Shown here: one piece after another, positions 1,102 to 1,351 of the stretch
How positions within the stretch are numbered: position 1 is the first letter of the stretch
How the letters are laid out: each line of letters starts with the position of its first letter
Origin: a bacterium
GTDB taxonomy: Bacteria; Patescibacteriota; Saccharimonadia; Saccharimonadales; Saccharimonadaceae
Length of the DNA: 44,189 nt
Direction of reading: 5' to 3'
Assembly: GCA_030429975.1 (NCBI GenBank)
Contig: JAUIGB010000001.1
Span: 1-44,189 of the forward strand
The notes under the pieces: model-generated
The model's database searches: none
What the model was told of the DNA's origin: nothing
Seen by the model: the letters and a program-made list of their open reading frames with translations, nothing else
Position numbers and translations under genes: made by a program

Positions 1102-1178
1102 TGGTCGGGATGACTGGACTTGAACCAGCGACCTCACGGCCCCCAGCCGTGCGCGCTACCAGACTGCGCCACATCCCG
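1102..1178 (-). tRNA. tRNA-Pro (GGG)
   Basis: A 77-nt cloverleaf on the minus strand. The acceptor CGGGATG pairs with CATCCCG, the discriminator is A and CCA is encoded. The anticodon stem CACGG/CCGTG holds the loop CTGGGGG, giving anticodon GGG. The T-arm contains GGTTCAAGTCC. It lies between a structured RNA upstream and the Nudix-RNase H start nine bases downstream. Confidence 0.97.
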
Positions 1179-1189
1179 ACGTGCGGTCT

Positions 1190-1333
1190 GTGCCCCATAG
1201 AACCACGATACTTCGATATTCCCCGCTTTTGCGCAAGGTGGGTCTCCTCAAACTACTTCCTCGAAAGTAGATCATTTGGAGTCCCAATATGTATGATGTA
1301 GGAAAATCATACGTACCGCGGTTTTTATGGGAC
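1190..1333 (-). ncRNA. Structured RNA of unrecognised class upstream of tRNA-Pro
   Basis: Read on the minus strand, almost every base is in a helix. P1 pairs 1313-1333 with 1190-1211 (about 20 pairs, including an 11-pair block with two G-U). Inside P1 are hairpin A (1291-1312, GTATGAT/ATCATAC) and helix P2 (1286-1290 with 1216-1220). P2 encloses hairpin B (1240-1285, GGGACTCC/GGAGACCC extended by CTACTT/AAGTAG) and hairpin C (1221-1238). The helices abut with almost no linker, giving two nested three-way junctions. A TATAAT box at 1340-1345 lies exactly six bases before P1. I see no terminator before tRNA-Pro at 1178, so it may be processed from a shared transcript. SRP, 6S, 5S, tmRNA and common riboswitch signatures were looked for and not seen. 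Confidence 0.65.
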
Positions 1334-1351
1334 TCTTTTATTATAACTCAA

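Follow-up and report, generated by a model that had tools for sequence, protein, structure and literature searches.

Gene order and fold of the RNA locus

On the minus strand of the window (that is, the whole stretch of 44,189 nucleotides analysed here), an RNA gene preceded by a TATAAT box lies directly downstream of a gene for an M50 site-2-type peptidase (1352-1999), and is followed by tRNA-Pro(GGG), by an open reading frame in which an N-terminal Nudix domain is fused to a C-terminal RNase H domain (217-1092), and by a class A RNase P RNA that is cut by the contig end (1-201) (Table 1). The place of the peptidase gene directly upstream of the RNA is kept across much of Patescibacteria, the Nudix/RNase H frame is conserved downstream of the RNA and tRNA-Pro, and in most related loci an RNase P RNA follows the RNA gene at a distance of no more than about 1.5 kb.

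The minus strand between 1186 and 1335 has a minimum free energy of -60.3 kcal/mol vs -34.7 +/- 3.65 kcal/mol for 200 dinucleotide shuffles, none of which (0/200) was equally good (z = -7.0), in agreement with the initial annotation, which had described a compact structured RNA whose pairing exceeds chance. The predicted helices are those described there: a closing stem (1313-1333/1190-1211), a hairpin (1291-1312), a long arm (1240-1285) and a second hairpin (1221-1238). The closing stem and the long arm covary strongly, whereas two of the proposed junction helices (1291-1312 and 1286-1290/1216-1220) fall, by comparison with homologues, in a central bubble. As had also been pointed out, six bases separate a TATAAT box (1345-1340) from the first paired base (1333); most of 40 homologues, among them ones without a downstream tRNA, have this box at an equal distance.

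Table 1 Features of the RNA gene and its flanks, in window coordinates.
Feature	Position	Strand	Basis
-10 promoter box TATAAT of the 6S gene	1340..1345	-	sequence; box and distance kept in most of 40 homologues
6S RNA gene (ssrS), mature RNA about 145 nt, predicted ends	1190..1334	-	fold, Rfam, R1 model
Closing stem, 5' arm	1313..1333	-	own-partner energy test (40 sequences); covariation in inner and outer helix
Closing stem, 3' arm	1190..1211	-	own-partner energy test; covariation
Central bubble, 5' strand	1286..1312	-	near-invariant GAUUUUCCU(A/G)A; hairpin (1291-1312) or pairing with 3' strand possible
Predicted pRNA GUAGGAAAAUCAUA, copied from 5' bubble strand, template +1 = 1298	1298..1311	+	published pRNA rules applied to 40 homologues
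Apical stem-loop (GGGA... / ...CCC)	1240..1285	-	strong compensatory change, two alignments
ACCCACCU, best-conserved block of the Rfam 6S consensus, with hardly any variation here	1236..1243	-	cmscan alignment and homologue alignments
Hairpin in 3' bubble strand, as in canonical 6S RNA	1221..1238	-	97% of cells paired, some compensatory change
GGGGAAUAUC in 3' bubble strand, complementary to GAUUUUCC of 5' strand	1215..1224	-	alignments
tRNA-Pro(GGG), about 11 nt past the closing stem	1102..1178	-	ARAGORN, Rfam, spacing in homologues

Relation to 6S RNA and to the adjoining tRNA

6S RNA is a small RNA that binds RNA polymerase and holds it in check. At gathering thresholds, Rfam returned RNase P RNA and tRNAs only for the window, with no match on the RNA at 1190-1333; in a permissive cmscan of 1080-1400, the 6S model (RF00013) was the sole non-tRNA family of meaningful score, matched over the full model with 22.1 bits (E = 0.011) and below the gathering cut-off of 46.4 bits, which is a curators' annotation threshold and not a biological feature. 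The initial annotation could not match the RNA to 6S; a covariance search against Rfam does return that family as a diverged match, yet at a sub-threshold score. The cmscan alignment matched the best-conserved part of the 6S consensus, GGGA...CCCACCU, to the nucleotides flanking the apical stem, and this motif is near-invariant in 40 homologues. On their own, the 22.1-bit match and the motif are only a lead. A search of the whole genome of the window species with RF00013 gave no match at E <= 10, as a weak score counts for less in a larger search space. Across 19 homologous loci, cmscan matched 6S in many, with a best score of 45.8 bits (orthologue L019), and no examined sequence of the window's own order reaches the gathering score.

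Homologues were found by several routes. Of 60 relatives searched with BLASTN, 17 contain clear homologues (E 2e-25 to 2e-4), and the Rfam 6S model alone, searched genome-wide in the relatives, gave two good matches (39.5 bits, E 5e-7; 32.4 bits, E 2.7e-5) that align with the BLASTN homologues and both adjoin RNase P RNA, one of them also tRNA-Pro. When named genomes were scanned for the conserved block of the 3' bubble strand, 26 records matched, almost all carrying the label Candidatus Saccharibacteria, Saccharimonadia or TM7 and one of them being the oral strain TM7 HOT 352; the window accordingly comes from Saccharibacteria. A clade-specific covariance model (R1), built from 20 Saccharibacteria sequences only, matched in 55 of 61 genomes (39 of the 40 that are at least 90% complete, with one copy each), although in a few genomes the match is weak (E 0.003 to 0.4).

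Phylum-wide, that is, across 287 genomes of Patescibacteria, R1 matched in 83 and RF00013 in 24, four of these above its cut-off. When R1 was run on the 24 loci found by RF00013, it recovered 23 at the same positions, including all four above the cut-off; unlike the window's order, loci elsewhere in Patescibacteria that R1 recognizes do pass that cut-off, with 55-60 bits. Given that R1 and RF00013 were built from different sequences, this concordance, which ties the RNA to accepted members of the family through an independent profile, is the main proof of 6S membership. Searched with R1, E. coli ssrS gave no match, so the link to classical 6S RNA runs through the Rfam model and the intermediate Patescibacteria. 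The neighbourhood agrees across the two sets of loci: the M50 peptidase gene precedes the RNA in the same orientation in 38 of 40 Saccharibacteria loci (one of the exceptions is truncated by the contig end) and lies upstream in 15 of the 24 Rfam-found loci, including three of the four above the cut-off. Downstream, the Nudix/RNase H gene is present in 34 of the 40 Saccharibacteria loci. The Patescibacteria 6S RNAs (L091-L114) score below the Rfam cut-off in 20 of 24 cases.

The RNA thus has the homology, architecture, covariation, conservation, synteny and promoter box of 6S RNA, and we consider it very probably a divergent, short 6S RNA of Candidatus Saccharibacteria (TM7). A new small RNA, as had been proposed initially, would have to form a class unrelated to 6S and similar in shape alone; although the members from the window's order all score below the Rfam gathering threshold and E. 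coli 6S goes unrecognized by R1, two models built independently of each other find the same loci throughout the phylum, and the M50 synteny and the GGGA/CCCACCU core are held in common. We regard such a class as very improbable, the reciprocal model matches having largely refuted it.

The initial annotation had also offered a domain of the tRNA-Pro precursor as the function of this RNA. In 19 of 40 loci, tRNA-Pro indeed follows 0-18 nt past the model end, with no space for a terminator or promoter, as would be expected of a leader or maturation domain of the tRNA. In the remaining loci (about half), however, no tRNA-Pro lies within 20 nt downstream, yet the same RNA, helices and TATAAT box are present. 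As RNA and promoter box are kept where tRNA-Pro is absent, the RNA is not a tRNA leader; in addition, the 6S RNA of Streptococcaceae is followed by tRNA-Lys in an arrangement read as an operon (PMC8414754), a precedent for 6S RNA beside a tRNA. We have accordingly rejected a leader function, which we judge the least probable of the readings considered. In the window species, 6S RNA and tRNA-Pro are probably carried on one primary transcript, and one shared precursor is likely wherever tRNA-Pro lies 0-18 nt downstream, a feature incidental to the identity of the RNA.

Covariation and the two folds of the central bubble

Comparison of the homologues supports a closing stem, a large central bubble and an apical stem, with covariation in the two stems. 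As the homologues differ in the length and sequence of the closing stem, this stem was tested in 40 sequences without aligning its arms: the mean duplex energy of each arm with its own partner is -27.8 kcal/mol, against -15.2 +/- 0.65 kcal/mol for permuted partners (0/10000 permutations), and both the inner and the outer helix show covariation. For the apical stem, an alignment not fitted to structure contains 148 double-change cells vs 41 when shuffled, with 95% of cells paired, and the GGGA...CCCACCU motif flanks this stem as in the 6S consensus. The hairpin in the 3' bubble strand (1221-1238) is paired in 97% of cells, with some compensatory change.

The bubble strands hardly vary between homologues (GAUUUUCCU(A/G)A in the 5' strand and GGGGAAUAUC in the 3' strand), and the bubble can, as judged from the sequence, fold in two ways: as separate hairpins, which is how the minimum-energy fold of the single sequence draws it, or by pairing from strand to strand. 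These pairings partly exclude each other, as the GGGGAAUAUC-GAUUUUCC strand pairing overlaps the 3' hairpin. The 5' hairpin (1291-1312) receives no covariation support on the model-fitted alignment (A2) and weak support on the free MAFFT alignment (A3); the model-fitted alignment favours strand-to-strand pairing, to which the free alignment gives little support. Because the answer varies with the alignment, covariation cannot choose between the folds. A check of compensatory change helix by helix, which had been put forward with the initial annotation, thus bears out the closing and apical stems strongly; the bubble pairings at 1291-1312 and 1286-1290/1216-1220 are near-invariant in sequence, and support for the 5' hairpin (1291-1312) depends on the alignment.

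Predicted product RNA, proposed mechanism and known systems

Published rules for the start of product RNA (pRNA; that is, an adenine next to the start and GG at positions 4/5 or 5/6; PMC8414754) fit a start at window 1298, giving the predicted pRNA GUAGGAAAAUCAUA. Among 40 homologues, 22 likewise have a pRNA-like start in which GG occupies 4/5 or 5/6, and 11 more have GG at 6/7, the start position being predicted in each case; in most homologues the predicted pRNA reads (G/A)UUAGGAAAAUCAU or AUUCAGGAAAAUCA.

These start features bear on a third alternative, an RNA resembling Ms1 that would bind the RNA polymerase core without sigma and yield no pRNA. Ms1 is structurally related to 6S RNA (PMC9130861), and binding to core or to holoenzyme is indistinguishable from sequence; however, Rfam scans gave no match to another polymerase-binding RNA family, in sequence the RNA resembles the 6S consensus, and pRNA-start features are present, so that we consider an Ms1-like activity very unlikely. 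As for the polymerase itself, the genome of the window species encodes one strong match to sigma-70 region 2 and three weaker ones. Three sigma-70 region-2 matches lie within 4.3 kb on one strand (C36:72417-76669 of this genome, outside the window), and a fourth match is at the edge of a contig; the genome measures 1 Mb.

For the 6S RNA proposed here, we infer holoenzyme binding, pRNA synthesis, release and processing as follows. The RNA would be transcribed from its own TATAAT promoter, and where tRNA-Pro adjoins it, cleavage by RNase P at the tRNA 5' end may free the tRNA and help to make or trim the 3' end of the 6S RNA. Closing stem, open central bubble and apical stem together could mimic an open promoter, by which, in analogy to the 6S RNAs of E. 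coli and Bacillus subtilis, the housekeeping sigma-70 holoenzyme would be bound and blocked under nutrient shortage. Once nucleotides are available again, the polymerase would copy the 5' bubble strand from about 1298 into a short pRNA beginning with GUAGGAAAAUCAUA, and this synthesis may open the closing stem, refold the bubble and free the enzyme. Release of the polymerase involves a new bubble hairpin in E. coli and a collapse helix between the bubble strands in B. subtilis (PMC12005410), and both alternatives (that is, the new hairpin and the inter-strand helix) can be drawn for the window RNA. A bolder conjecture, which we put forward tentatively and hold to be possible but rather doubtful, is that this lineage-specific 6S RNA, near-universal in Saccharibacteria and widespread in Patescibacteria, has two exclusive conserved bubble folds (GAUUUUCC-GGGGAAUAUC pairing vs separate hairpins) that act as a switch flipped by pRNA, together with a 3' end made by RNase P from a 6S-tRNA-Pro dicistron.

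Saccharibacteria and other Patescibacteria are host-dependent, with genomes of about 1 Mb and few known regulators, and Saccharibacteria are tiny epibionts. The near-universal retention of 6S RNA would make global braking of RNA polymerase part of the core equipment of Saccharibacteria and Patescibacteria, a plausible trait in an epibiont whose life switches between attached growth and starvation. In the open-access literature searched, we found no report joining 6S RNA with Saccharibacteria or the candidate phyla radiation, which is not proof of absence; the RNA belongs, as a divergent member, to a known family that this literature has not reported from the group. Annotation based on Rfam misses 6S RNA in most of these genomes, and throughout the phylum 6S RNA is probably under-annotated by the Rfam model. 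An improved model could start from the alignments and coordinates reported here.

Compared with known systems, the window RNA shares with 6S/SsrS RNA (RF00013) the closing stem, the central bubble with a 3' hairpin, the apical stem, GGGA...CCCACCU, a pRNA-like start in the 5' bubble strand, its own promoter and its single copy. It is shorter (about 145 nt vs about 180-200 nt) and scores below the threshold of that family, its bubble is highly conserved (GAUUUUCCUAA / GGGGAAUAUC) with a possible extra hairpin in the 5' strand, and it adjoins the M50 peptidase gene, tRNA-Pro and RNase P RNA. Relative to B. subtilis 6S-1, whose pRNA is 5'-GUUCGGUCAAAACUA (PMC12005410), the (G/A)UUAGGAAAAUCAU predicted for many homologues is similar in having GG at 5/6 and A-rich positions 7-10 (a comparison of the pRNAs alone), and the complementarity between the bubble strands recalls the collapse helix in the central bulge of 6S-1, although the tRNA-Pro neighbour sets the window RNA apart. 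Ms1 RNA of Actinobacteria, which also binds RNA polymerase, is likewise structured and of 6S-related shape; unlike the RNA described here, for which Rfam scans gave no sequence match to Ms1, it binds the core enzyme.
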